A stretch of DNA of 11,702 nt, from the NCBI GenBank assembly GCA_008636095.1, contig VSJD01000191.1, positions 1 through 11,702 on the forward strand, given 5' to 3'. This DNA comes from Kiritimatiellota bacterium (GTDB lineage: Bacteria > Verrucomicrobiota > Kiritimatiellia > JAAZAB01). The position numbers were made by a program, and so were the translations under genes. Positions 1 to 11,702 of this stretch are shown one piece after another (position 1 is the stretch's first letter; each line of letters starts with the position of its first letter). The notes below the pieces were generated by a model. That model saw only the letters and a list, made by a program, of their open reading frames with translations, searched no databases and was not told the DNA's origin.

Positions 1-326
1 GGAACCATCGGGAGCAGGCGGCCACGTTACATACAGGCATACGGGGTGTTTAGCCCCACGTGGGTGATGTCCGCCGGCGCTCAGACACTGAATCGGAGAG
101 CAACTCCATTGCAATCCTCGAGCGTCTCCCGTGTCGCCCCAGTGAGTGTTTTCACTTTCACCCACTGGCCGTATACGATGCTCCCTTGGTTCCATTTTTT
201 CCACTCTTTTTTGAACCCAAGAGACCACATTACCGACACTGATTTCACAGATGCGATCGAAGAAAATATTCTTGTCTTCCCTATCCGTGTCATCCGTGGT
301 AAATAATTGATTTAATTCCATATTCT
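1..326. other. gene-free left flank after clpP
   Basis: No recognisable gene lies in this stretch. A minus-strand frame of 70 residues (81-293) is open, but its product matches no family I know and its first third is translated from the repeat arms at 237-298, so I do not call it. There is no clpX start, although clpX often follows clpP. No U-tract terminator was found after the clpP stop codon; the bases just downstream are AT-rich. Confidence 0.5.
237..298. repeat. imperfect inverted pair, CACGGAT type
   Basis: The left arm at 237-252 reads CACTGATTTCACAGAT. The right arm at 283-298, read on the minus strand, is CACGGATGACACGGAT. The two agree at 12 of 16 positions. Between them lies a small palindrome, AAGAA-AATA-TTCTT (260-273). 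The layout, two inverted short-period arms around a small hairpin in a spacer, is the same as in other gene-free regions of this window. Its function is unknown. Confidence 0.55.
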
Positions 327-932
327 TCATTTCTTCAGGCGTCCGGCGAGTACCTCATCCACCAGGCCGTAGTTTTTGGCCTCCTCGGGTGACATGAAGA
401 AATCCCGGTCCGTATCCTTGGCAACCATCTCGATTGATTTGCCGGTATGCTTGGCCAGGATGCCGTTAAGGATATCACGAATCCGCAGAATTTCCTGGGC
501 CTGGATGCTGATATCGGAGGCTGCCCCCTGCACCCCGCCCCAGGGCTGATGCATCATGATCCGCGCATGCGGCAGGGAAAATCGCTTGCCGGGCGTCCCG
601 GCCGCCAGCAGGATGGATCCCATGCTGGCCGCCTGGCCCACGCAATAAGTGGCAACATCGCACTTGAGAAACTGGATGGTGTCATAAATGGCCATGCCCG
701 CCGTTACCGAACCGCCGGGCGAATTGATGTATAAGCTGATTTCCTTGTTGGCGTCTTCCGCCTGCAGGAACAGCATCTGGGCCACGATGAGACTGCTGGC
801 TTCGTCACCAATTGCGCTGCCCAGGAAAATGATCCGGTCCTTCAACAGCCGCGAATAGATATCATAGGCGCGTTCGCCACGCCCGGTTTGCTCCACCACC
901 ATCGGCACTAACATCTGGTTCTTACTGCCCAT
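327..932 (-). CDS. clpP: ATP-dependent Clp protease proteolytic subunit
   Basis: ClpP is the tetradecameric serine peptidase that degrades proteins unfolded by ClpX or ClpA in the cytoplasm. The 201-residue product has the usual length and aligns along its whole length with bacterial ClpP. The catalytic triad is complete: Ser103 in GQAASMGS, His128 in MMHQPWGG and Asp177 in DTDRDFFM. Each is offset by 6 from mature E. coli numbering (97, 122, 171). [11 protein letters not shown] (70-80) forms the oxyanion-side strand and loop. The mature N-terminus is expected near LVPMVVEQT (from residue 8), leaving a very short propeptide. The ATG at 930-932 is preceded by GGGGG at a spacing of six bases. 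The gene follows tig, as in many bacteria, but 199 bases of repeat-bearing spacer separate them, and clpX does not follow within the window. Identification is secure. Confidence 0.97.
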
Positions 933-948
933 AATAAACCCCCATTTT

Positions 949-1130
949 GATTTTCGATTTGCGATTTCCGATTGTCGATTGCCAAACTCTAATTTTAAAT
1001 TTCAAATAGAAACAGCAATATAATTTTCCTATCCAACCATCCTATCCATCGCAATCAGCCTTGCAACCGGGACGCAAATTATCATTCCCCGTTTTCAATC
1101 GGCAATCGGCAATCGAAAATCGGAAATTCC
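949..1130. repeat. inverted pair of 7-base arrays filling the clpP-tig spacer
   Basis: The left array (949-983) is five heptamers: GATTTTC, GATTTGC, GATTTCC, GATTGTC, GATTGCC. The right array (1096-1130) is five heptamers in the opposite orientation: CAATCGG, CAATCGG, CAATCGA, AAATCGG, AAATTCC. In the minus-strand transcript the two could pair as a long imperfect stem of about 35 positions enclosing about 110 bases. The right array ends one base from the tig stop codon, and the left array begins 16 bases upstream of the clpP start. Inside is a smaller direct repeat of CCTATCCA (1028-1035 and 1041-1048). Any promoter for clpP must lie in or between these arrays; I saw no convincing -35/-10 pair. 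Confidence 0.85.
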
Positions 1131-1131
1131 G

Positions 1132-2457
1132 TTAGTGTCCGACCAGCCGGCTGAAAAAGCCCTCTTCGTTCAGCTTGGCATTGGCCAATAGAAAATCGAG
1201 GGTCTTGTCCATGCGAACCTGGTGCCGGATGGAATCCAGCTCCTTCTTTTCCTCCAGTTCCTTGCGCAGTTCGGCGCCCGGCATGCGATAGCGCTCAGCA
1301 AGGATCTCAATGGACCGGTCCACCTCCGCATCTTCCACTGTGATTTTTTCTTCCTCCGCGATACGGTGCAGAATGTACCCGACCTTGACTTTTTCCGCGG
1401 CCGTGTTCGTCGCCGCCGTCAATAGGTCCGCCCTTTTTGCTTCCACCTGCTCCCGGGAGACGCCCCGCGTCAAGTTCTGACGGACCAGGGACGCGAACAG
1501 ATTACGGGCCTCTTCCTGCACAAGCGTTTCGGGCAGATCCAGCGCGGTTTTGGCCAGCAGGTGCCGGACAATTTCTTCCTTAAGCCGCTCCTTTTCGGAG
1601 CGCTTGGCTTCGTCCTGCAATGATTCTTTCAGCTTGCCCCGCAGGTCGGCCTCGGATTCCACTCCGGCTTTTTTCAGAAGTTCCGCATCCAGCGCCGGAC
1701 GCTTTTTTTCGCGGATCGCCTTGACCTGCACCTGGTAGACGGCCGTCTTACCGGTCAATTCCTGGACTTTGAAATCGGCCGGGAAAGTGACGGTAATCTC
1801 TTTATGAGCGCCGACGGAAAGATCCAGGAGCCCCGTATCGAACCCGGGCAGGAAGGCGTTTTCATCCGCCATGACCCAGAAGTCCTTCCCCTGCCCCAGT
1901 CCGGTGACATGCTTGCCCAGTGCAGCCAGGGGTTTTCCATCAAACCGGCCTTCGTAATCAACCTGCACCAGATCGCCCTTGCGGACGGCGCGACCCTCCA
2001 CCGCCTCGAATTGCGACAGGCGCTCGAGCCACGCATCCAGCGCTTTCTGGACGGCATCCTCGGACACGTCAACCGGGTTCTCCTTGAGGCCGATCCCCTT
2101 GTATTTCGGCAACTTAAACTCGGGCGCCACATCCAGCGTGACCTTGTAGGTCATGGGCTCATTACGTTTCAACGTAACGTTTAAATCCAAAACGGCCAGG
2201 GGGTCCAGCGGCGCCTGCTTCAACGCCTCCGGGTATGTTCGCGCGACCAGGGCATTCTGCACGTCCTCGTCAATTTCCTTGGCGTACCGGTGCTCAACCA
2301 GCGCCTGCGGCGCCCGGCCCGGCCGGAAGCCCGGCACACGCGCCATTTTAACAAACGCGGCAATCACGGTTTTATATTCTGCCGCCACGGTATCCACCGG
2401 CACATCCACGTGCAGTATTTTACGGCACGGCCCCGCCTTTTCCACTTTTACCTTCAT
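1132..2457 (-). CDS. tig: trigger factor, ribosome-associated chaperone and peptidyl-prolyl isomerase
   Basis: Trigger factor binds ribosomal protein L23 at the exit tunnel and shields nascent chains. The 441-residue product has the full three-domain layout. The N-terminal ribosome-binding domain (about 1-115) carries GFRPGRAP at 43-50, matching the GFRKGKVP-type signature loop. An FKBP-like PPIase domain follows (about 155-245, with GDLVQVDYEGRFDG and a later FPADF segment). The C-terminal helical chaperone arms (about 250-435) are rich in Lys and Glu. Length is close to E. coli trigger factor (about 430). The ATG at 2455-2457 is preceded by GGAG at 2468-2471, a rather long spacing of ten bases. 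The next gene downstream is clpP, the usual partner. The stop codon is almost touched by the heptamer array at 1096-1130. Confidence 0.96.
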   Translation of the reverse strand: MKVKVEKAGPCRKILHVDVPVDTVAAEYKTVIAAFVKMARVPGFRPGRAPQALVEHRYAKEIDEDVQNALVARTYPEALKQAPLDPLAVLDLNVTLKRNEPMTYKVTLDVAPEFKLPKYKGIGLKENPVDVSEDAVQKALDAWLERLSQFEAVEGRAVRKGDLVQVDYEGRFDGKPLAALGKHVTGLGQGKDFWVMADENAFLPGFDTGLLDLSVGAHKEITVTFPADFKVQELTGKTAVYQVQVKAIREKKRPALDAELLKKAGVESEADLRGKLKESLQDEAKRSEKERLKEEIVRHLLAKTALDLPETLVQEEARNLFASLVRQNLTRGVSREQVEAKRADLLTAATNTAAEKVKVGYILHRIAEEEKITVEDAEVDRSIEILAERYRMPGAELRKELEEKKELDSIRHQVRMDKTLDFLLANAKLNEEGFFSRLVGH

Positions 2458-2525
2458 GAAAACCGTACTCCAAACTATTGATTAAGATTGACCGAATTAG
2501 ATGCTCCCGAAAACGAAGCTGTATT

Positions 2526-2557
2526 AAATCACTAAATCACTCAATCACTCAACCACT
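2526..2557. repeat. four tandem 8-base units upstream of tig
   Basis: The units are AAATCACT, AAATCACT, CAATCACT and CAACCACT, followed by a partial unit AAATTA. The array lies 68 bases upstream of the tig start codon in the 225-base rho-tig spacer. No inverted partner was found for it. It is AT-rich and could supply part of a promoter for tig, but no clear -35/-10 pair is visible. Confidence 0.75.
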
Positions 2558-2567
2558 AAATTAGGCA

Positions 2568-2668
2568 AGCGTTCACGGAACGCTGAAATTGGAAAAATGC
2601 GATGTGCTAATTATGGCAGATTGCTCGTCTTTCGCCGAAATTTCTAATTTCCAGTTTCCAATTTCAAG
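2568..2668. repeat. small hairpin and inverted heptamer arms after rho
   Basis: A 7-base-pair hairpin, AGCGTTC-ACG-GAACGCT, lies at 2568-2584. Next to it GAAATTGGAAA (2585-2595) is the exact inverse of TTTCCAATTTC (2655-2665). The second arm belongs to a degenerate heptamer array, TTTCTAA-TTTCCAG-TTTCCAA (2641-2661), which ends shortly before the rho stop codon at 2683. The hairpin has no T-tract on its downstream (lower-coordinate) side, so it is not a typical intrinsic terminator. Confidence 0.6.
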
Positions 2669-2682
2669 CCGTGACGGCTACG

Positions 2683-4278
2683 TCATTCCTTCATGGTCAT
2701 CAAAAACTCGGCATTACTCTTGGTCTTTTTCAGTTTGCTGACCACCAGCTCCATGGTTTCCACCGGGGGAACCCCGTTCAAGGCCTTGCGCAGAATCCAG
2801 GTCTTGTTCAGCTCGTCCGGATGCAGCAGCAACTCCTCCTTGCGCGTCCCGGATTTTTCGATATTGATGGCCGGGAAGACACGCTTGTCCACGAGATGCC
2901 GGTCCAAACTCAGTTCCATGTTGCCTGTGCCCTTGAATTCCTCGAAAATCACCTCGTCCATGCGACTACCGGTGTCCACCAGGGCTGTGGCAATGATAGT
3001 CAGGCTTCCGCCTTCCTCAATGTTGCGGGCGGCGCCGAAGAACCGCTTGGGCTTATGCAGGGCATTGGAATCCACGCCGCCGGACAGGATCTTGCCGCTG
3101 TGCGGTTCCATCGTATTGTAGGCCCGCGCCAGGCGCGTGATACTGTCCAGCAGGATGACGACATCCCGCCCGCATTCCACCATGCGCTTGGCCATCTCGA
3201 TGACCATCTCCGCCACCTGGATGTGCCGCTCCGGCGGTTCATCGAAGGTGGAGCTCAACACGTGGGCGCTCGTATGCCGCTCCATGTCGGTCACTTCCTC
3301 CGGTCGCTCGTCAATCAGCATGACGATAAGGTACACATCGGGATGATTCTTGGAAATACTGTTGGCGATTTTTTGCAGGAGTACCGTTTTACCGGTGCGC
3401 GGCGGCGCCACGATCACGCCACGCTGGCCCATGCCGATGGGCGTAAAGATATCCATGACGCGCATGGAAACCTCTTCCTGTTCCCGCTCCAGGATAAACC
3501 GCCGGTCGGGAAAGAGCGGCGTCAGATTTTCAAAGGGAATCTTGCGCCGGCTTCTTTCAGGATCACCGTCGTTCACCTTATCCACGCGCAGCAGCGCGAA
3601 AAAGCGTTCCTTATCCTTGGGCGAGCGGATTTCGCCTTCCACCGTGTCACCGGTTCGCAGGGCAAAGCGCCGGATCTGCGACGGCGAAACGTAAATGTCT
3701 TCCGGGCATGGCAGGTAGTTGTAATTCGGCGAGCGCAGGAAGCCGAACCCGTCCGGCAGGATCTCGATGACGCCTTTGCCGAAAATCGTGCCACGGAAGT
3801 TGGCATTGGCCTTGAGGATTTCGAAGATCAACTCGTGCTTGCGCAAGGCGCCCAGGTCCACCAGGCCGTAGTGGGCCGCCAACTCGTTGAGCTCAGGTAC
3901 GGATTTCTGCTGGAGCTCCGAGAGATGCAGGATCTTTTCCTTGCCCCGCCCGGCGGATGCAGCCGGCGCGCTCGCCGGGGCTGCCCCGGCATGATTCGGC
4001 GTGTTGCCGTTCGATATGTTCCCGTTCGGCCCGCCTGGATCCGCCGCCGACGCGATTACGGGCGCCGACCCGGCCACGGGCGCCGACCCGGCCACGGGTG
4101 CCGACCCGGTGGGATGGTCCGGCGCATTGCCCGGAGCACTATCATGACCATGCCGGACCGGCGGCACGGCACCATTTTCCATGTAAATTTTAGACATTGC
4201 CGGCCGCCCTCGCGGATGGCGCGGGGAATGTCCCGTGCTCCGGGATTTGTTTTCATTCATGTTCCGTTTATCTTCCAT
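2683..4278 (-). CDS. rho: transcription termination factor Rho
   Basis: Rho is the hexameric RNA helicase that ends untranslated transcription. From the ATG at 4276-4278 the product is 531 residues, about 110 longer than E. coli Rho. The extra length is an N-terminal low-complexity extension (about 1-112, rich in Pro, Ala, Gly, Asn). Then follow the Rho N-terminal helical domain (about 117-160), the OB-fold RNA-binding domain with DGFGFLR (176-182) and the RecA-like ATPase: Walker A APPRTGKT (291-298), [10 protein letters not shown] (323-332), Walker B VVILLDS (373-379), the Q-loop region [20 protein letters not shown] (400-419), and [12 protein letters not shown] (476-487). A longer start at 4368 would run 101 bases into coaE. 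The chosen ATG overlaps coaE by 11 bases and has GGAG seven bases upstream. Identification is secure; the start is likely. Confidence 0.96.
4060..4109 (-). repeat. 18-base tandem repeat in the Rho N-terminal extension
   Basis: Two identical 18-base copies (4060-4077 and 4078-4095; GGGCGCCGACCCGGCCAC on the plus strand) are followed by a third, diverged copy. On the coding strand each unit gives six residues, so copy changes keep the frame; the protein reads GSAPVA twice and then GSAPV (residues 58-74). Such perfect copies are prone to slippage and suggest recent expansion in a disordered region. Confidence 0.85.
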
Positions 4279-5005
4279 CGCTGTTCTCCACATGTATTCC
4301 GATATGTTGCATAACTTGGACGGTTTGCCGTTGCGCACACATTTGTGTGCCCGCATTAAAAACCACATAATCCGCGCGTTTCATTTTTTCCTCCACCGGC
4401 CACTGGGCCGCCATCCGATCGTGTGCCTCCTTTTCTGTAAATCCTTTAGAGCGCAAGCGTTTCCGCTGCAGTGCAATCGGCGCGCCGACGCAAATCACCA
4501 GATCCCAGGCCGCCTCCCAGGCCGTCTCATAGAGCAGGGGAATAATGGCCGCCACACCTCCACGCCACACCTGAACGGAATTTATGATTTCTGATTTCTG
4601 ATTTCTGATTTCTGATTTCTGATCGCTGATCGCTGCAACTGGTTGCAGGCGGGCCTCTTCCCGCCGCGCGAGGACCCACGCCTCGATGGCGCCTTGCGCC
4701 GCCGGATGCAGGAGGGCGTTCAACCGGCCCAGCGCCGCCGCATCGTCAAACACGCGCCGCCCCAATACCGCGCGGTCAATACTACCATCCGACGCAAGAA
4801 TCTCGCGGCCAAAGGCGGCCACGATCCGCGGAAACAACGGCGTACCTGCGCGCATAAGGTCATGGCACACCGTATCCGCCTCGATGACCGCAACACCCAG
4901 CGCTTCCAGGTACGCGCCCACCAGGCTTTTCCCACAGGCAATTCCGCCCGTGACACAAATCCGCAACCAGGGGGCGGGGGCTTCGGTTGATGCGTTAGCT
5001 GTCAT
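4268..5005 (-). CDS. coaE: dephospho-CoA kinase with an in-frame repeat insertion
   Basis: CoaE phosphorylates the 3'-hydroxyl of dephospho-CoA, the last step of coenzyme A synthesis. The 245-residue product has the P-loop TGGIACGKS (19-27), [10 protein letters not shown] with Asp44, LNALLHP (95-101), IPLLYE (155-160), the adenine-side RMAAQ (197-201) and the usual end ADYVVFNAG. The family is normally about 200 residues. The excess is mainly an insertion of about 20-25 residues (about 122-147) between the helix after LNALLHP and the strand before IPLLYE. It is partly translated from a 7-base DNA array and contains the heptad RNQKSEI. The insertion keeps the frame and all key residues, so the enzyme is probably active. 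The ATG at 5003-5005 has no clear Shine-Dalgarno sequence. rho follows with an 11-base overlap. Confidence 0.94.
4286..4289 (-). promoter_or_regulatory. Shine-Dalgarno GGAG for rho inside the coaE 3' end
   Basis: GGAG on the minus strand lies seven bases before the ATG at 4276-4278. It sits within the last codons of coaE. Together with the 11-base overlap of the two reading frames it supports residue 31 of the longest open frame as the true Rho start and suggests that rho translation is coupled to that of coaE. Confidence 0.7.
4586..4634. repeat. seven tandem heptamers inside coaE
   Basis: On the plus strand the array is five exact GATTTCT units followed by two GATCGCT units. On the coding strand the unit is AGAAATC, which gives the same heptapeptide RNQKSEI in every frame with no stop codon. 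On the opposite strand every frame contains TGA. The array is 49 bases long, so the complete insertion must include extra bases to keep the frame. Confidence 0.95.
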
Positions 5006-5047
5006 AATCCAACGCGGGCTCTACCCGCAACCCAAACAAAACAAACC

Positions 5048-5230
5048 TCACCACAGAGTTACACGGAGGCACAGAGAGACTTCTCCTCACGTGTTCTCTT
5101 CCGACCAATCGTTGCGTGCATTTTGCGCAGGGCGCAACGCCCTGCGCAAAATGCACGCAACACTCTGTGTGGAGATGGAATGAGATCGAGGAGACGGATC
5201 ACGCTCCGTGCCTCCGTGTCTCTGTGGTGA
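5048..5230. repeat. element with inverted ends (CACCACAGAG type) and central hairpin
   Basis: The left end (from 5048) reads TCACCACAGAG, then TT, then ACACGGAGGCACAGAG. The right end (5204-5230), read on the minus strand, is TCACCACAGAG followed directly by ACACGGAGGCACGGAG. The arms therefore match except for a two-base insertion and one substitution. In the centre is a perfect 24-base-pair hairpin (5111-5161). The right end closely resembles the ends of the element at 7726-7988. There is no open frame of note inside, no transposase and no obvious target duplication. The layout is like that of a MITE, but how it moves, if it does, is unknown. Confidence 0.85.
5111..5161. repeat. perfect 24-bp hairpin
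   Basis: The left arm (5111-5134) starts GTTGCGTGCATTTTGCG; the right arm (5138-5161) is its exact reverse complement, with a three-base loop CAA. It is symmetrical, has no T-tract on either side and lies at the centre of the inverted-end element, so a role as part of that element is more likely than simple termination. Confidence 0.95.
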
Positions 5231-5306
5231 ATCCCTTCTTGCTTTTACATTTTCTTGTTTTTTATAGCGGTTCCTGATGTATCAGGTATTAAAGCCCGCA
5301 AACCAA

Positions 5307-5387
5307 GTATGGGAGTATCTGCGTATGGGTGCATGGAATTGCAAGAAACTCTTTTACTCCCATACACCCAAACTCCCATACACCCAA
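5307..5387. repeat. inverted octamer arrays after the STT3-like gene
   Basis: The right array (5356-5387) alternates ACTCCCAT and ACACCCAA twice. The left array (5307-5338) reads GTATGGGA, GTATCTGC, GTATGGGT, GCATGGAA, a degenerate form in the opposite orientation. The right array ends three bases before the stop codon of the STT3-like gene. In its transcript the arrays could form an imperfect stem just after translation ends. Confidence 0.75.
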
Positions 5388-5390
5388 ACT

Positions 5391-7703
5391 TTACCGCAAC
5401 CGCAGGAGGACCTGCATGGCATTCGTATTCTGCGGGTCGTACATCAGGGCCTGCGTCGCTTTGTTTTCCGCATCCGGCCTTCGGCCATGGCGCAAGGCTT
5501 GCACGGCCTCCGCCGCCAGGCGCCCTGCGGCTTGCTCATCGGCGCGCGTGATAACACGGAACACACGGTACTTGGCATTCCCCCACAAAAACCTGAAATA
5601 GCGGCCCTGCTCGGGACGTTTTTCAAACAGCCGCGCGGCGGCCGACGGCGGCGGATTCAACGCGTTCACGCAATACCGCATTTGGGATTCCGGCTGAATA
5701 TCGGCAAACTCACCCAGCGCGTACACGTAATACGGAACGCCAAAGGGTTCCATCCACGCGCGAAAACCATCCTCGTTGGATTTGAATAGCGCTTCCCCGT
5801 AGGTGCGCACCCGTTCCCGGATGCCTGGCGATTCGAATTTAGGGTGCAGAACGATGGGGCAATTTGCATAGGTCAGCAAAAAAGAACTTAATCCAAAATT
5901 GGCCAGTACCCGCTCGCCGGCCGTATTGGCCCGCAGCCATCGGCAGAGTTCCCGCTTTTCGTTCAAATAGACCGGCACACTGCCCCAGCGCGCGGGGTTG
6001 TTCATAACATGCGCGGCTTCCACGCCCACCCCGGCCAGCAACAGCACCAGGATCAGCCAGCGGGTAAAACTACGCTTGACGGACACCCAGTAACCCAACC
6101 ATCCGAGCAGGGCGGCAAACCCCAGGATCAAGAACACATGGAACCGCACGAAAAATACAAAGGCCAGAAGCGAGATGACCGTGTAACCCAGTAGTTGATT
6201 GATTTCGGGATCTGGATGCGCTCGCGTATGAAAAAAAGCGATGGCGCCTGCTAATACAGACAGGCAGAGTGTTACAGGAAACAGGTTGGCTGTCAACAGT
6301 AAAGTTGCAGAATTTAAGGGCGCCGTCCAGAGTATGCGCTGGTCAAAGGTCAGGAGCGCGGGATCGGCAGGCTTATGGTTAAGGAATCGGAGCTTGGCCC
6401 AGAGCAGTTCGATAAAATGGCTGTATGTTTCACCGTATTGCTGGATCCAGAACGTACCCACAATAAGCGGTAACAGGGCCACCAGCGCCAGTACAAGCGT
6501 ATGCCGGACACAGCGCTGACCCATCTCGTTTTTCTCCGGGAGGGGATCATTAATCAGGCCCCGCAGCGGGGCAACTTTAACACCGGGCGGTGTGGGCACC
6601 GGGCCTACAATATTTGTAGGCCGGGTCCCCTGACCCGGCGGAATTGTCCACCATAGGCGGATCCGCCAATGGCGGAAAATTCCTATGCATTGCAACAGCC
6701 GCTCAGCGCCCAGGCCCAACGCCACGCCATAGGCCAACAACATGGCAAACGAACCTGCAAACGCGTGTGCGCGCAGGTAAGGGTTCAGCAATCCGGCACC
6801 GGCCAGTGCCAGCAAAATCAGCCACCACGCCAGGCAGGCGCAGTGATCCCGGAAATACCTTCCGGCCACGAACCGGACGTAAGACCAAATCCCCCAGAGG
6901 ATGACGTAATACTGAATCATGTCCCAGGTCGACACGGCGCACGCAAGCATCAGGGCGGAAAGCAGGGACGCAATGAAAAAGGCAGTGTTCGGTGTTCGGT
7001 GTTCGGTGTTTGGTCCGGCGCTCGCCCCGCGTAGCTCCTTGAGCGTAGTGGGGTCTGTCGTCCCGCCTTCGCCCAAAGGGCTACGGTGGGCAGGCTGTCG
7101 TCCGCCGTCCGTCTTCAGACATTCGGCGTTAGATGTTCGATGTTCGATGTTTGCTTTTCCGATCCTATTCGCCAGCGCGCCCAGGGCCCAGTGAGCGATA
7201 AGGAACGGCAAAGCAAAATTTTCGTGCTGGAGTTCCTGGCCGGTGGAGCGCATGACAGCGGCCAGTGCCACGGCATAATACGCGCCGGCAATTCCCGCCG
7301 CCCAGACGGAACGCGTCCACGCCCACAGCCACAGGCTCATCAGTGGAATACCCAGGCAGAACCAGGCGGCGGCGATCCAGCGCACGCGATCATCCAGCGG
7401 CATCGGCCGGGGAAACAGGCGGGCCGCCGCGGCATAGACATATTCCGCGCCCAGGGTATAGGTCGCGCGCACCACGACGCCTTCCGGCGCCTGGACGGCT
7501 TTATCGAGGCGGGGAATATGCCCGTTTTCAAAGAGCATGCGGACGTACCGGAATTCCAACGCACTTTCCAGGTTGAACGGCAAGGGCCGGCCATACTGCT
7601 CGAACTGGGCTTCAAGCACCACGCGCCGAATGGCCAGCCCCGCGGCAAACAGCGCGACCAGTCCCAGCACGGCCAGCAAAATTCTAATATAGCGGGCAAT
7701 CAT
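5391..7703 (-). CDS. multi-pass membrane protein, STT3/GT-C glycosyltransferase-like
   Basis: The 770-residue product begins with a membrane segment (about 7-25) and has roughly a dozen more up to about residue 563, followed by a soluble C-terminal domain (about 570-720) and a short TPR-like tail (about 722-768). The first outer loop, with ALEFRYVRMLFENGHIPR (48-65), resembles the corresponding loop of STT3/AglB/PglB oligosaccharyltransferases. QELQHENFALPF (156-167) and RFLNHKPADPALLTF (439-453) resemble later external loops. The expected acidic catalytic residue would be Glu47 or Glu50, not the usual Asp, so activity is uncertain. If this is a GT-C enzyme it would transfer a sugar or oligosaccharide from a polyprenyl carrier at the outer face of the inner membrane. 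Two inserts made of repeat DNA (residues about 183-240 and 355-382) interrupt loops without breaking the frame. The ATG at 7701-7703 lacks a good Shine-Dalgarno sequence. No glycosylation partner gene is nearby. Confidence 0.6.
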   Translation of the reverse strand: MIARYIRILLAVLGLVALFAAGLAIRRVVLEAQFEQYGRPLPFNLESALEFRYVRMLFENGHIPRLDKAVQAPEGVVVRATYTLGAEYVYAAAARLFPRPMPLDDRVRWIAAAWFCLGIPLMSLWLWAWTRSVWAAGIAGAYYAVALAAVMRSTGQELQHENFALPFLIAHWALGALANRIGKANIEHRTSNAECLKTDGGRQPAHRSPLGEGGTTDPTTLKELRGASAGPNTEHRTPNTAFFIASLLSALMLACAVSTWDMIQYYVILWGIWSYVRFVAGRYFRDHCACLAWWLILLALAGAGLLNPYLRAHAFAGSFAMLLAYGVALGLGAERLLQCIGIFRHWRIRLWWTIPPGQGTRPTNIVGPVPTPPGVKVAPLRGLINDPLPEKNEMGQRCVRHTLVLALVALLPLIVGTFWIQQYGETYSHFIELLWAKLRFLNHKPADPALLTFDQRILWTAPLNSATLLLTANLFPVTLCLSVLAGAIAFFHTRAHPDPEINQLLGYTVISLLAFVFFVRFHVFLILGFAALLGWLGYWVSVKRSFTRWLILVLLLAGVGVEAAHVMNNPARWGSVPVYLNEKRELCRWLRANTAGERVLANFGLSSFLLTYANCPIVLHPKFESPGIRERVRTYGEALFKSNEDGFRAWMEPFGVPYYVYALGEFADIQPESQMRYCVNALNPPPSAAARLFEKRPEQGRYFRFLWGNAKYRVFRVITRADEQAAGRLAAEAVQALRHGRRPDAENKATQALMYDPQNTNAMQVLLRLR
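6558..6675. repeat. cluster of hairpins inside the STT3-like gene
   Basis: Several palindromes follow each other: GCCCCGC-A-GCGGGGC (6558-6572), GGCCTACAA-TAT-TTGTAGGCC (6602-6622), GCCGGGTC-CCCT-GACCCGGC (6620-6639) and CCGCC-AAT-GGCGG (6663-6675). On the coding strand the stretch to 6640 gives about 28 residues rich in Pro and Gly (355-382; includes PPGQGTRP and NIVGPVPTPPG) between membrane segments, unlike the surrounding protein. Confidence 0.85.
6985..7154. repeat. two 7-base arrays around a hairpin, inside the STT3-like gene
   Basis: Four units at 6985-7012 (GTGTTCG three times, then GTGTTTG) and five at 7120-7154 (CATTCGG, CGTTAGA, TGTTCGA twice, TGTTTGC) run in the same direction. 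Between them CGTAGCTCCTTGAGCG (7030-7045) is an imperfect inverse of CGCCCAAAGGGCTACG (7070-7085). In the protein this is a hydrophilic insert of about 58 residues with SNAE/EHRT and PNTEHRTPNT motifs between two hydrophobic membrane segments. The length is a multiple of three and no stop codon is created. Confidence 0.9.
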
Positions 7704-7725
7704 GTTCGGCAGAACCTGGAAGAAG

Positions 7726-7988
7726 ATTCACCACGGAGGCACGGAGGGCACGAAATATACAGGACACCGAGACTCGCAAACGCCCACCCCGGACGTTCGA
7801 TGCGTCCGTGTCCGGTGCGTCCGTTTGCGCGCTGTTGATATTTGGAGTTCTCCGAATGGTACTATGGAATCTCTCGTCTTCCTCCCCAATACAGACCATT
7901 CCATCAAATCTGAGATTGGCGCACCGTCAATCTCAGATTTGATGGAACCTCCTCTTCTGTTTTGCTCCTCCGTGTCTCCGTGGTGAAT
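7726..7988. repeat. element with 22-base inverted ends (CACCACGGAG type) and internal hairpins
   Basis: The left end (7726-7747, beginning ATTCACCACGGAGGCACG) and the right end (7967-7988, inverted) match at 21 of 22 positions. Inside are CGCAAACG/CGTTTGCG (7775-7782 and 7822-7829), a direct repeat of TGCGTCCGT (7801-7809 and 7816-7824) and a perfect 19-base-pair hairpin (7900-7946). The ends belong to the same family as those of the element at 5048-5230; the interiors differ. No transposase and no clear target duplication are present. Confidence 0.88.
7900..7946. repeat. perfect 19-bp hairpin
   Basis: The arms are TCCATCAAATCTGAGATTG (7900-7918) and its exact reverse complement (7928-7946), with a nine-base loop GCGCACCGT. 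No T-tract follows on either side. It lies within the inverted-end element, as the 24-bp hairpin does in the element at 5048-5230. Confidence 0.95.
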
Positions 7989-8029
7989 TCCTGCTGATTT
8001 TACCCACAGATCCTGCGGAAGACCCATAT

Positions 8030-8896
8030 TCAGAACAGCGTTGGCTCGCGCAGGGCTTTGGCCAGCGTATGAAACTCCATTTCCTCATAGAACGCCAGCA
8101 GGCGGCGCGCATCCGGCGGCCGCGCCTGCATGTCAGCCAGCGATGCTCCACAATCAATATCCGTCTGCAGGCGGAGCAAAGCCAAGTTGCGCGCGATCAG
8201 TTCGCGATGCTCCTGGAGTGTTCTCCGCGTCTTTTCCGGTTCAACGTCCTCCACATGGTCAAGCGCGTTGGCCAGGGACTGCCATTGCTGAAGCAGTTTC
8301 GCCGCCGTCTTGGCGCCGATACCCGGCACGCCGGAAATATTATCGGAACTGTCGCCGGTCAGCGCCAGCCAGTCCACCACCTGGTCCGGCCGGACGCCCA
8401 TTTTGGCAAGTACTTCGCCCGCCCCCATTTTTTCGGCCACCTTGCCGGGCATTACGACGGTAATGGATGGGGTTACCATTTGCAGCAGATCTTTGTCGCT
8501 GGATGCCACCAGGACGTCCAGGCCCGCGGCTACCGCTTGGACCGCCACCGAGGCCACGACATCATCCGCTTCCTGGCCATCCAGGCGCACATGGGCAATC
8601 GCCGCGGCATCCAGCCAGGCGTCAATGACCGGCAACTGGGCGCGCAGTGCGGGCGGCATGACGGGCCGTTGGGCCTTATACGTGGACAGCAGCTTCAGCC
8701 GTTCGGCGGGCGCTCCGCCGTCAAAGACCACCAGCTTATGCGACGGCCGCCAGATTCGCTCCATCTGCATGATTGTTTTAATGAACCCATACACCGCATT
8801 GGTGGGCTGCCCGGCAGCCGTGGTTAGCCCCGTAATGGCATAAAACGCGCGATAGGCAATGCCCAGCGCATCCACGAGTAAGAGAGAGGAGGCCAT
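8030..8896 (-). CDS. stand-alone 5'-3' exonuclease / flap nuclease (PolA N-domain type)
   Basis: The 288-residue product corresponds to the 5' nuclease domain of DNA polymerase I, which removes RNA primers and 5' flaps. Metal-binding and substrate motifs are in place: LLLVDALG with Asp9, VVFDGG with Asp59, TYKAQR (72-77), EADDVV (109-114), ASSDKDLLQ (131-139), LTGDSSDNISG (179-189) and the helix-hairpin-helix GVPGIGAKTA (189-198). It ends soon after the domain, so the 3'-5' exonuclease and polymerase domains of PolA are absent. An upstream ATG at 9040 is rejected because the added 48 residues are translated from repeat DNA. The chosen ATG (8894-8896) opens the family's typical start (MASSLLLVD) but has no visible Shine-Dalgarno sequence, and the heptamer array begins seven bases upstream. 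The position ahead of coaE and rho matches that of polA in Chlamydia as I recall it. Confidence 0.9.
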   Translation of the reverse strand: MASSLLLVDALGIAYRAFYAITGLTTAAGQPTNAVYGFIKTIMQMERIWRPSHKLVVFDGGAPAERLKLLSTYKAQRPVMPPALRAQLPVIDAWLDAAAIAHVRLDGQEADDVVASVAVQAVAAGLDVLVASSDKDLLQMVTPSITVVMPGKVAEKMGAGEVLAKMGVRPDQVVDWLALTGDSSDNISGVPGIGAKTAAKLLQQWQSLANALDHVEDVEPEKTRRTLQEHRELIARNLALLRLQTDIDCGASLADMQARPPDARRLLAFYEEMEFHTLAKALREPTLF

Positions 8897-8903
8897 GCGA
8901 TGA

Positions 8904-9058
8904 ATTTTCGATTTGCGATTACCGATTTGCGATTTATCAGAGCGAGAAAAACGCAAGGAATAACGAAGATGATGTTCGCTGATGACAGGATGCCATAACG
9001 AGAATTGCCGACTTTGTTTAGGGCAATCGGAAATCGACAATCGTAAATCTAAAATTCC
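8904..9058. repeat. inverted pair of 7-base arrays filling the exonuclease-secretin spacer
   Basis: The left array (8904-8938) is ATTTTCG, ATTTGCG, ATTACCG, ATTTGCG, ATTTATC. The right array (9024-9058) is CAATCGG, AAATCGA, CAATCGT, AAATCTA, AAATTCC. The orientations, the number of units and the final AAATTCC are the same as in the clpP-tig spacer. The right array ends two bases from the secretin stop codon, and the left array begins seven bases upstream of the exonuclease start codon. The 85 bases between them contain no gene. Confidence 0.88.
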
Positions 9059-9060
9059 GC

Positions 9061-11702
9061 TCAGGGGTTTGCCTGGGGGGCAACGGCCGGCGCATTGCCG
9101 GCGCCCGTGGCGGTCGCAATAAGCTCCTTGTTGATCTTGTTGCCGGCCGGATCCACCAGGTTGGCCGTGACAAAGATCAATAGGTTGTATTTTCTGCTGT
9201 TGCTGGTCTTGCTCTGGAAAAGATAGCCCAACAGCGGGATGTCACCCAGGAAGGGGATTTTATCCAGCGTTGTGGTCTGCTTCTCCGAAATCATCCCGCC
9301 CATTACCACGGTCTGGCCATCCCAGATCGTAATGCTGGTGGTAATGTTGCGGCTTTTGAAAATCGGCTGGGGCATATTCATGAGTTCCGGCTCGCCCGTG
9401 GTCGGGTCAATTAACGTGGATCCGTAATTGATCCAGTTAGCGAGTTCACACACCTCGGGGATCATAACCAGGTCAATGGAAAATCCGTCCGGCCCCACCG
9501 TCGGCGTCACGTTCAGAGTCACACCCGTGTTGCGGGTTTGAAATGCCGCCGGCGTAACAAAGGCCTTGGATATCACGGCCTGACTACCACTGCCACTGCC
9601 CGAAACCTGGGGCGGCGTCAACTCAAACTCGGTCGGATAAATCAGCTCCTCGACCACCTTGATTTCGGCATTGGCCCCGCTCTTGGTGGTAACCTTGGGC
9701 GCCGAGAGCAGGTTGGCGCCGCTCTTCTGCTCCAGGGCGTGTAAAACCATGGTCACTTCCGGATTGGTAAGAATACTGGAAATTGAAAGAATGCCGGCCA
9801 TAGTGCCGCCGGGAGTCGCCGCAATGCCGCTGGCACCCTGCCCCAGGTTGCGCAGGCCCTTGGAAAAGGTGTTCTGATTCATCTGGATCCGTTCCCGTCC
9901 CGCCAGCGGAATCGGGGCGCCGGCGCCGGCATTTTCGGCCAGCTCCCAGTTATCGGTCAACAGCCATTCGACGCCCAGCTCTTCCAAATCGTCTTGGGCA
10001 ACTTCCACGAAGCGGGCCTCGATTTCCACCTGCACCGGCACGACGTTCAGGGAGGTCAGGATGCGCTCAAAGCTTTCCAGATTATCGGCCGTGTTTTTTG
10101 CAATCAGCAGGTTAAGACTCGGTTTATATACAATGGAAGTGCCTTCCGGGAAAGGCACGCCGGCATCCACAAAAAACTTTCTAACATCACCACGTTCCAC
10201 GGTCGGCGCCGCGCCGCCCAGCTCCATCCCGCCTCCGCCGCTGCTACCGGCGGCGCCAATGATCGTTTCCGCAATGGAAGGCTGGACTTTATACGTGCGC
10301 GTAATCAGCTCGCCATAGACCACATCGCTCGGGGTAATGACCACCACGTTTTCCTCGATCCGATATTTCAGCCCTGTTACTTCCGTAATGTATTTAATGG
10401 CATCCATCAGGACGATGTTGCGCAAACTCAGGGTTACGGTGGGTAAATTGCCCTGTGTGACTACCGCCCCTCCCTCACCGTTCAATTCATCTTCATTGGA
10501 TTGGACCGCCCCAGTCGGCGCCGTTTCCGCGGCGGCGCCGGCACGCTGAAGTTGCAGAATAAAGTTCACACCTTTTTCGCCCGGCGGCGAATCCTTGTCG
10601 TTAGCGATACTGACCTGATCCAAGTATTTAATGACGTCCACAATATTGGCCTGCCGAAACTCTAACTGCGGAATCACGATGCCGTTCAACTTATCCAGTA
10701 GACGGCGCTTGCCTCTGTCGGTGATGGTGGTTTCCTGAATTCTCGCCTCCGGACCGACTGTTTCGCGCTTCACCGGCGGGGTCCAGGTATCGCGCACCTG
10801 GGAAATCATGTCGGCCTGCTGGCGGTTCATCTGGTCGGTTTCCAGATTATACATTTTTTCGTAGACTTTTTTCAGCCAAGCGGCCGCCTCGTCGTTCTTT
10901 TCGTCAAGCACCAGCACATTTTTAAATTCACGCCGGGCTTTCTCGTACTCGCCAATGACATAATACTGCCGGCCGAGGTCAATTGATGTGCGGATCTGCT
11001 TGGCCCGATCCAAGTGCTCCGCAGAACGGCGCACGGGCACGGGCATGGCGGCGCGCTCAACTTTCCGGGTTTCGTCCTTCTTGATCTGTTCGCTAAGCCG
11101 GGCGGCCTTCTGATACGCCGGATAGTAACCTAACGCACGCCGGATGGCATCCTTGGCTTCCTGATATTTGCCATCCTTATAATAATTCAGGGCAATGCGG
11201 TATTCGCACTCGGCCTGACTTTGCATGGCTTTCTGCCGCGTCTCCACCGTATGCGGACGGACGGGCATCACGTTCATGGCCTGGTTGAAAGACTTCAAAG
11301 CGGCTTCAAATTCATTCCGACCCATCGCCTGGTAGGCCAGATCCAGGGCCTTCAACGCCTCCACTTCCTTAGCCTGCCGACGGACTTCTTCCTGGGCCGC
11401 AACGACTTCTTCCGGGGTAAGCATCTTATTGGTCACCGCTATGTCGGCGGCCGTTTCCGAAGGCTTTTCCGGAACGTCCCCGGCGCCGACCTCTGACTTC
11501 TGACCTCTGACTTCTGACTGCTGACTGCTGCCCCCCGCGGCCGCGCCCTTTTCGCGACTGAACAGGCGACTCCAGAACGATGCCTTCGGTTGTGGACTGG
11601 CGTCGTCTTTGGCAACCACCTCCGCCGCATTCCCCGAACTACGATCCAATTCAAAATCCGAGTTTTTTTCCGCGGCGGGCGTGGAGGTTGCAGGTTTTTC
11701 AA
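9061..11702 (-). CDS. secretin of a type IV pilus / type II secretion-like system, 5' end missing
   Basis: Secretins form the outer-membrane ring through which pili or exoproteins pass. The frame is open to the window edge, and the visible start (Pro/Ala/Lys-rich, no signal peptide) shows that the true N-terminus lies beyond it. A TTG at 11647-11649 could be read as a start but is probably internal. Residue numbers count from that TTG. A linker (1-75) is followed by TPR-like helices (about 95-270: ALDLAYQAMGRNEFEAALKS, IALNYYKDGKYQEAKDAIRR), two N1/STN-like modules (about 327-440), a further module up to about 540 and the secretin core (about 540-832) with LLSAPKVTTKSG (647-658), VVMGGMIS (781-788) and IPFLGDIPLLGYLF (798-811). 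The TPR plus secretin layout recalls the Akkermansia Amuc_1098 family, but I cannot confirm that. Partner pilus genes would be expected upstream, outside the window. A 14-residue repeat insertion lies at 41-54. Confidence 0.9.
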   Translation of the reverse strand, partial: EKPATSTPAAEKNSDFELDRSSGNAAEVVAKDDASPQPKASFWSRLFSREKGAAAGGSSQQSEVRGQKSEVGAGDVPEKPSETAADIAVTNKMLTPEEVVAAQEEVRRQAKEVEALKALDLAYQAMGRNEFEAALKSFNQAMNVMPVRPHTVETRQKAMQSQAECEYRIALNYYKDGKYQEAKDAIRRALGYYPAYQKAARLSEQIKKDETRKVERAAMPVPVRRSAEHLDRAKQIRTSIDLGRQYYVIGEYEKARREFKNVLVLDEKNDEAAAWLKKVYEKMYNLETDQMNRQQADMISQVRDTWTPPVKRETVGPEARIQETTITDRGKRRLLDKLNGIVIPQLEFRQANIVDVIKYLDQVSIANDKDSPPGEKGVNFILQLQRAGAAAETAPTGAVQSNEDELNGEGGAVVTQGNLPTVTLSLRNIVLMDAIKYITEVTGLKYRIEENVVVITPSDVVYGELITRTYKVQPSIAETIIGAAGSSGGGGMELGGAAPTVERGDVRKFFVDAGVPFPEGTSIVYKPSLNLLIAKNTADNLESFERILTSLNVVPVQVEIEARFVEVAQDDLEELGVEWLLTDNWELAENAGAGAPIPLAGRERIQMNQNTFSKGLRNLGQGASGIAATPGGTMAGILSISSILTNPEVTMVLHALEQKSGANLLSAPKVTTKSGANAEIKVVEELIYPTEFELTPPQVSGSGSGSQAVISKAFVTPAAFQTRNTGVTLNVTPTVGPDGFSIDLVMIPEVCELANWINYGSTLIDPTTGEPELMNMPQPIFKSRNITTSITIWDGQTVVMGGMISEKQTTTLDKIPFLGDIPLLGYLFQSKTSNSRKYNLLIFVTANLVDPAGNKINKELIATATGAGNAPAVAPQANP
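11488..11529. repeat. six tandem heptamers inside the secretin linker
   Basis: Plus-strand units are GACCTCT, GACTTCT, GACCTCT, GACTTCT, GACTGCT, GACTGCT. The array is 42 bases, exactly 14 codons. On the coding strand it gives SSQQSEVRGQKSEV, close to the peptide in CoaE. The opposite strand would carry TGA in every frame. Confidence 0.92.

Follow-up and report, generated by a model that had tools for sequence, protein, structure and literature searches.

Short-period repeat arrays in the gene spacers of a Kiritimatiellota genome as probable ends of small mobile elements carrying IVP or GxxExxY genes

The window analysed here is a stretch of 11,702 nt (contig VSJD01000191.1, our C297) from a 3.8-Mb metagenome-assembled genome (MAG) of a Kiritimatiellota bacterium with 357 contigs (GCA_008636095.1). 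It carries seven genes, all on the minus strand and named by homology: gspD, a 5′-3′ exonuclease gene (exo), a membrane-protein gene with a Dpy19 match (5391-7703, GT in spacer names), coaE, rho, tig and clpP. The spacers between them, and some of the genes themselves, hold tandem arrays of short units, often facing each other as inverted pairs. We consider it probable (roughly 85%) that these spacer arrays form the ends of small mobile elements, and that the gene-free spacers hold copies of them resembling miniature inverted-repeat transposable elements (MITEs), the complete elements carrying a gene for IVP or GxxExxY. IVP (PF05635/TIGR02436) is a four-helix-bundle, Avd-like "23S rRNA-intervening-sequence protein", and GxxExxY (TIGR04256/PF13366) is placed by Pfam in the PD-(D/E)XK superfamily. 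The features of the window are listed below, with the strand for arrays within genes; G numbers are Kiritimatiellota MAGs (G000 is the genome of the window), and C and L numbers are contigs and loci.

237..298: degenerate inverted pair of the 9-mer CACGGAT family (weak), seen by eye only, resembling TACCACGGATATCACGGATAACACTGAT elements.
945-981 and 1096-1127 (arms): clpP-tig spacer element with heptamer GATTTNC, with 85-92% matches of the arms to the C53 IVP element (L269).
2525..2560: lone 8-mer array of the TTTAGTGA family in the rho-tig spacer, paired in sister species G003 and G004.
2585-2595/2639-2665: weak inverted pair GAAATTGGAAACTGG in the tig-rho spacer, with small hairpins outside the arms.
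4580..4635, minus strand: in-frame heptamer array (ATTTCTG) within coaE, lacking 21 bp (3 units) in G004 and missing altogether from G003, G001 and G008.
5052..5226 (arms 5052-5076/5204-5226): CACGGAG 8-mer inverted pair enclosing a 24-bp perfect hairpin (5111-5161), arms matching a GxxExxY element at about 83-90% over 28-35 bp.
5307..5389 (arms 5307-5346/5348-5389): inverted pair of ATGGGAGT 8-mers, separated by 2 bp from the stop codon of the gene at 5391-7703.
6985-7014 (GTGTTCG) and 7099-7158 (AACATCG), minus strand: two heptamer arrays about 85 bp apart within the membrane-protein gene, matching IVP locus L271 at 90% over 40 bp (6985..7158).
7726..8023: gene-less GxxExxY-type element, with CACGGAG arms (7726-7747/7967-7988), a hairpin (7899-7947) and subterminal sequence to 8023.
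8904-8935 and 9025-9055 (arms): exo-gspD spacer element with heptamer GATTTNC, arms matching L269 at 87-92%.
11488..11530, minus strand: in-frame heptamer array (AGAGGTC/AGAAGTC) within gspD, with 83-97% matches in the arrays at IVP loci L266 and L272.

Rfam and tRNA searches of the window gave no RNA match. Arrays were counted in every sixth contig of the genome (60 of 357, 658,204 bases, the window's own contig included), with genes called by a home-made dicodon finder. Of 370 spacers 40 bp or longer, 63 had an array, whereas five dinucleotide shuffles averaged 0.6, and period 7 accounted for 62 of the 75 spacer arrays, with no period-7 array in any of these shuffles. The arrays are real, non-random and extend beyond this contig, with families that recur across the genome and in other genomes, so that both ways in which the first-pass annotation thought its pattern might fail, chance and a single-contig artefact, can be set aside. 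Its statement that every sizeable spacer holds arrays is true of the window only, since a slightly lower threshold gave arrays in 71 of the 306 spacers bounded by two called genes (8/49 at 40-99 bp, 26/89 at 100-199 bp, 20/83 at 200-399 bp and 17/85 at 400 bp or more), and the array richness of the window is luck. Nor are the arrays a feature of spacers alone, as 16 of 439 sampled genes hold one (2 in one shuffle), like coaE, gspD and the membrane-protein gene in the window. Arms had been described in five spacers of the window; period-7 or period-8 arms were confirmed in four, whereas the pair at 237-298 was called by no tool. The weaker version noted in the rho-tig spacer was recovered as a weak GAAATTGG pair and a lone 8-mer array. 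Arrays are often translated in frame, at the ends of small open reading frames (ORFs) or within genes, and this reading through explains the repeat peptides that had been noticed.

The units are 7, 8 or 9 bp long and fall into many families, each with a few fixed positions and one to three variable ones, and an array has about 4-5 units (median 4.57, n=82). As tandem 7-nt units, mostly intergenic and multicopy, those of period 7 are tandem heptameric repeats (short tandemly repeated repetitive sequences, or long simple-sequence repeats). The arrays are often paired in inverted orientation, with one polarity per family. From the genome of the window and its relatives 52 inverted pairs were gathered; leaving out two unassignable pairs and one ATTTCTG pair, 49 pairs in 15 families remain, three of these families holding a single pair that is uninformative on polarity, and 48 of the 49 have the same polarity as the rest of their family by script, with the last a tie that reads forward by eye. 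Terminal inverted repeats of defined polarity are a property shared with MITEs. For GTGTTCR there were 114 genome hits and none for the reversed pattern, and among 100 listed places of the 114, pairs within 250 bp were convergent in 19 cases and divergent in none (by eye). The same order of units is found at unrelated loci, such as GAAATTGGAAACTGGAAATTAG at four places. The outer flanks of the GTGTTCR arms are only weakly conserved beyond 2 bp, and thus no fixed target was found for this family. A phylum-wide scan for CACGGAG was positive in 69 of 288 genomes, with a poor control, as the reversed pattern fits the same arrays. Predicted stems were stronger in array spacers (median z -2.41, n=44) than in 118 others (-0.87, p 2e-5), with z from -1.7 to -12.8 in the window spacers and strong hairpins in two window cores (5111-5161 and 7899-7947).

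In the clean families, the two arms of one pair matched each other slightly better than swapped arms (0.675 versus 0.645, N=40, p 0.0077), mainly owing to GATTTNC (p 0.004; 0.16-0.69 in the other eight tested families); concerted change between arms is not used as evidence here. A null for inverted partners that contained same-family arrays proved too severe and was replaced by other controls. Small hairpins (AGCCGTTCACGGCT; AGCGTTCACGGAACGCT) lie directly outside the arms of GAAATTGG-family elements (L105 9177-9311, L116 14066-14245 and window 2563-2680), which was not seen in other families.

The cores between GTGTTCR arms, read inward, look like the start and the end of a small ORF, and we therefore searched for PF05635. 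There were 12 hits in the genome of the window, and hits in 28 of 29 genomes, with IVP profile matches above the curated cut-off and a sequence match to PDB entries 2gsc (XCC0516) and 2rld (E about 8e-8). We compared the 300 bp upstream of 21 IVP genes (10 of the 12 hits in G000, 6/8 in G003 and 5/5 in G004) with the reverse complement of the 300 bp downstream, taking a score of at least 16 as a pass. This flank test was passed by 18 of the 21 IVP genes (Fisher p 1.6e-20), compared with 11 of 357 controls and, among short control genes, 1 of 65, and a score of at least 20 was reached by 16/21 and 5/357, respectively. Arrays were called on both sides of 8 out of 10 IVP genes and of 10 out of 368 controls. 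The units flanking IVP genes belong to the spacer families (AGAGGTC, GTGTTCG, GATTTNC, AATGGTT, AACATCG, AAATTCC, ACGACGG, AATGCAG and others), and related IVP proteins keep their unit family across species, namely ACGACGG (C296, G004, G003), GTGTTCG (C328, G003) and GATTTNC (C53, G004). The gene-bearing IVP loci thus have an IVP/S23p ORF between inverted repeats, as in 23S rRNA intervening sequences (IVSs), which is not the case for the gene-less window elements; these sit between or within protein genes, not inside an rRNA gene. The strongest hit among the short control genes was recR (L115 14299-15126), with two separate ATGGGAGT inverted pairs, one per side.

A second type of element has CACGGAG arms. 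ORF L109 10348-10719, within a CACGGAG pair 568 bp apart, encodes GxxExxY (TIGR04256 E 4e-44, PF13366 E 4.5e-44), a match above the curated cut-off. PF13366 had 88 matches in 21 genomes, and the flanks of the best 30 were compared; 27 of these had a flank score of at least 16, compared with 67 of 870 mismatched flank pairs, and 19 reached at least 20; the arms are shorter than those of IVP loci, often with 2-3 units of 8-10 bp. At a further locus (L098 885-1264), a CACGGATAT inverted pair surrounds about 330 bp with an apparent small membrane-protein ORF, possibly a third cargo.

Several gene-free spacer elements retain parts of these gene-bearing elements. Three collinear pieces of L111 6634-6844, separated by two gaps, align to the GTGTTCG IVP element (L267), L116 9006-9146 retains both ends of its AAATTCC IVP parent, and the L020 and L111 2746 elements likewise retain both parental ends. 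With tblastn, remnants of IVP were detected in two GTGTTCG spacer elements each of L020 and L111 (E 5e-8 to 0.012), whereas the AATGGTT matches were confined to the tail encoded by the array. In the window, 7853-8023 and one end of the GxxExxY element of the same genome (L109/L304) agree at 81.6% along 179 bp (E 2.4e-45), and the other end of that element recurs at 7726-7745 (100% over 20 bp), so that the spacer at 7726..8023 is best read as a GxxExxY element without the gene. Shared ends and subterminal sequence with an internal deletion, as in MITEs, were thus found for GTGTTCG, AAATTCC and CACGGAG, and for GATTTNC the likeness is confined to the arms. The coaE-GT pair, the gspD array and the coaE array match gene-bearing loci in the arrays only. 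On these alignments, some gene-free spacer elements are, as judged from sequence, internally deleted copies of gene-bearing elements. A palindromic GC-rich insert of the GTAGCCCTTTGGGCGAAGGCGGG type (window 7015-7098) interrupts the heptamer array of the membrane-protein gene; it belongs to a separate dispersed repeat family, since IVP locus L273 has in its flank an 87% match to 7055-7109.

Comparison of the window spacers with the orthologous spacers of G003, G004 and G001 showed that sister species keep the slots with a different array family or none. The gspD-exo spacer holds GATTTNC in the window, AATGCAG in G003 and G004, and a GATTTNC-like pair in G001, and the exo-GT spacer holds CACGGAG in the window, CGCAAAGAA in G003, a GACTGTAG-like pair in G004 and none in G001. 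The two pairs of the GT-coaE spacer correspond to a remnant in G003 and to none in G004, and in the tig-clpP spacer the window (945..1127) and G004 have pairs with homologous cores, with a collapsed remnant in G003. The rho-tig spacer has full TTTAGTGA pairs in G003 and G004 and one arm in the window. In the membrane-protein gene the array is uninterrupted in G003, interrupted in the window, and absent from G004 and G001. Arrays therefore come and go, with the reading frame preserved when they lie within genes, and unit number changes by whole units (3 units in coaE).

The layout is also found on plasmids beyond the phylum. With two IVP proteins as queries, tblastn returned 29 and 19 plasmid records, mostly cyanobacterial, and 16 of the listed hits were picked before their flanks were seen. 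Arrays lay on both sides of 10/16 at a strict setting and 13/16 at a looser one, and 11/16 had an inverted flank score of at least 16, compared with 33/240 mismatched pairs, a rate inflated by families shared among the cyanobacteria. Among 145 other coding sequences in four 50-kb plasmid stretches, five reached this score and two, cas6 and cas4, had arrays on both sides, both adjoining an IVP gene. Besides the cyanobacterial plasmids, those of Azospirillum lipoferum and Gemmatirosa showed the same layout. In a Pseudanabaena galeata plasmid (L291) the IVP gene lies between cas6 and cas4 with arrays on both sides, and in a Picosynechococcus plasmid (L294) between cas10 and cmr3 with an array called on one side. 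IVP genes in cas loci have been reported, according to passages of PMC3936711; with arrays at their flanks in L291 and L294, they may be insertions and not cas genes.

The mechanism we propose draws its direct support from the layout, the sharing of families, the fixed polarity, the collinear deletions, the presence and absence at slots, the change in unit number and the predicted stems. A full-length copy would be roughly 0.5-0.7 kb, with one small gene, IVP or GxxExxY, enclosed by arrays that face each other, each with about 4-5 units (7-8 bp) in IVP elements and about 3 units (8-10 bp) in GxxExxY elements. The encoded protein, or a machine recruited by it, would recognise, at either end, arrays of its own family, acting alike on full-length copies and on MITE-like copies that have presumably lost the gene and kept both ends; GxxExxY, as a member of a nuclease superfamily, could cut. 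We infer the chemistry of movement and the action of the protein on the arrays. Later the arrays would drift, with unit number shifting by slippage. In RNA the arms may pair into a stem that closes the spacer and makes the insertion tolerable, as in 23S rRNA IVSs cut by RNase III, and by analogy with the Coxiella IVS, as described in parts of PMC4990558, RNase III may also cut the RNA stems of these elements. The shared architecture recognised by the first-pass annotation (array, core often with a hairpin, inverted array, with differing unit families) is upheld, and its suggestion of one mechanism for all arrays holds as one kind of mechanism, used by at least two element types. It did not recognise the arrays as the probable ends of elements that carry genes, the gene-bearing copies lying outside the window.

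Several observations weigh against a mobile-element origin. Movement itself was not observed, no target-site duplication or excision product was found by eye in spacers too diverged to fix insertion points, and to our knowledge IVP is not a known transposase, nor, for certain, is GxxExxY. The flank test missed L268, L278 and L282 (L268 and L282 being close relatives by sequence), and L274 barely passed (16.5). Across the class only 9 of 29 IVP loci passed, again with differing families and G017 included, at a cut-off inflated by homologous loci; strong inverted flanks were found in this test for 4 of 20 Y1 transposase genes and for none of 24 clpP genes. The array detector called both sides in only 9 of the best 30 GxxExxY loci, as most arms have 2-3 units, and at L309 (G026 C108), near a contig start, several CACGGAG arms surround the GxxExxY gene in mixed or reversed order, which breaks the simple polarity rule there. 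In 71 kb of G023, which has two IVP and three GxxExxY genes, there is no AT-containing array of period 7 or 8, so gene presence alone does not mean many arrays; G012, with neither gene family, has no such array in 100 kb. In the window, the likeness of the two GATTTNC elements to an IVP element stops at the arms, and no gene-bearing locus matches the tig-rho features or the 237-298 pair.

Of the other explanations, simple-sequence repeats made in place by polymerase slippage, without a mobile element, would account for the change by whole units in coaE, and passages of PMC4679880 describe heptanucleotides as the commonest long repeats in many genomes and state that slippage had been proposed. 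Slippage alone does not predict the same unit order at unrelated loci, inverted partners of fixed polarity or an association with two gene families, and homology that extends subterminally beyond the arrays already disfavours it, making it a very improbable origin. The arms could instead be sites to which a global regulator or a nucleoid protein such as IHF/HU binds, as proposed for Geobacter metallireducens, where extracts of PMC2700814 describe four classes of mostly paired sites, class 3 consisting of five tandem heptanucleotides MTYCTGA; many copies here do lie near gene starts or stops. The slots are empty or swapped between sister species, copies occur within coding genes, the array family tracks the IVP lineage and collinear gene remnants exist, so that we regard regulator sites as highly unlikely to be what the arrays primarily are, although arrays may later be put to regulatory use.

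Repeats of the repetitive extragenic palindromic (REP)/REPIN type, spread by a RAYT (Y1 HUH) transposase, come to mind because Y1_Tnp genes were found in 25 of 29 genomes searched, four of them in the genome of the window, and one array family has short hairpins outside its arms. Nevertheless G017 (95% complete) has 21 period-8 and 8 period-7 arrays in 100 kb and no Y1 hit, for which reason a RAYT/Y1 driver was rejected, the arrays not being tied to such a gene as REPs are to RAYT, and this origin is scarcely credible. The strong inverted flanks of Y1 genes (L131, L132, L153, L155) are long hairpin clusters, not these arrays, and represent a different, REP-like system in the same class. A reverse transcriptase, by analogy with Avd, is weakened as a driver by the lack of an RVT_1 hit in 12 of 29 genomes, G017 included, with a small doubt left by genome incompleteness; neither a Y1 transposase nor a reverse transcriptase seems to be required. 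Finally, the arrays might be tolerated slots or integration hotspots that take up unrelated small genes, with IVP and GxxExxY as passengers, which would suit a layout common to two unrelated gene families, the IVP gene within CRISPR operons and a recR gene with a separate pair on either side. Had a gene entered a direct array, the arrays flanking it would point the same way, whereas those observed are inverted, and the array family follows the IVP lineage across species; we consider hotspots unlikely, if less so than the preceding explanations.

If the arrays are indeed element ends, a broader and more tentative extension is that these elements form an unnamed class of minimal mobile elements, in which a small protein recognises its own array at both ends, and which gave rise to both heptamer repeats and 23S IVSs; we hold this to be possible, with doubt prevailing. 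In a putative model, a homopentameric ring of IVP would bind the array with one unit per subunit, which is attractive given the usual array size of 4-5 units and the solved relatives 2gsc and 2rld, each with five chains and reported as such a ring, and the GxxExxY nuclease would do the cutting in its own elements. On this view gene-less copies would have given rise to the heptamer repeats of cyanobacteria, Xanthomonas and Geobacter, and would also be ancestral to 23S rRNA IVSs.

Earlier reports of tandem intergenic heptamers, from cyanobacteria, Xanthomonas, Geobacter and Beggiatoaceae, offered slippage, regulator sites and G-quadruplexes as guesses; IVP and GxxExxY genes are common and small with no role assigned, and 23S rRNA IVSs have no agreed origin. 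A mobile-element origin would merge the heptamers, both gene families and the origin of 23S IVSs into one testable question, offer an origin for short bacterial repeats that were noticed and left unexplained, and simply explain spurious repeat-peptide "genes" and IVP genes in cas loci. The slots with presence and absence provide a natural system for studying element movement and bacterial tolerance of insertions in operons and genes. In the open-licence literature, outside which most subscription papers lie, no paper tying dispersed arrays to IVP or GxxExxY genes was found.

MITEs keep both ends, lose the internal gene and reach many copies; unlike MITEs, the elements described here have short-period arrays as ends and a parent protein that is not a proven transposase. 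IVP resembles Avd, the accessory protein of diversity-generating retroelements (excerpts of PMC10053308), one IVP scoring 41.2 bits on Pfam bAvd (cut-off 40) with matches to NCBIfam DivGenRetAVD far below cut-off, but unlike Avd it seems not to need a reverse transcriptase partner, as judged from the 12 of 29 genomes mentioned above. The heptameric repeats of Xanthomonas and Nostoc are similarly tandem, variable at some positions, mostly of about 4 units and mostly intergenic, and the Xanthomonas unit GGGAATC forms 70 (Xcc) and 75 (Xac) convergent pairs; in contrast to our arrays there is one main unit per genome, and the available passages of PMC4692102 discuss possible G-quadruplexes and propose no gene-bearing parent. 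The Geobacter metallireducens sites (extracts of PMC2700814) are likewise tandem (MTYCTGA), in inverted pairs, multicopy and absent from a sister species, and are interpreted there as sites of IHF/HU or another regulator. The GGGAATC and MTYCTGA pairs and the TAACTGA repeats of PMC4679880, as far as the excerpts describe them, look like the same phenomenon. A further close system is the 23S rRNA IVS of Coxiella burnetii, with an S23p/IVP ORF between terminal inverted repeats (a 28-bp stem) and, just upstream of the ORF, tandem GACAGAT heptamers in 2-3 copies depending on the strain; the same passages of PMC4990558 cite a homopentameric IVP for Xanthomonas. It shares with our elements the IVP ORF, inverted ends, heptamers and sporadic distribution, and IVSs have long been regarded as possible mobile elements; it differs in lying within rRNA, from which RNase III excises it, instead of in spacers and protein genes, and dispersed gene-less copies or many unit families are not described in those passages. 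In the Coxiella IVS, as described there, a single element already combines inverted ends, heptamers and IVP.

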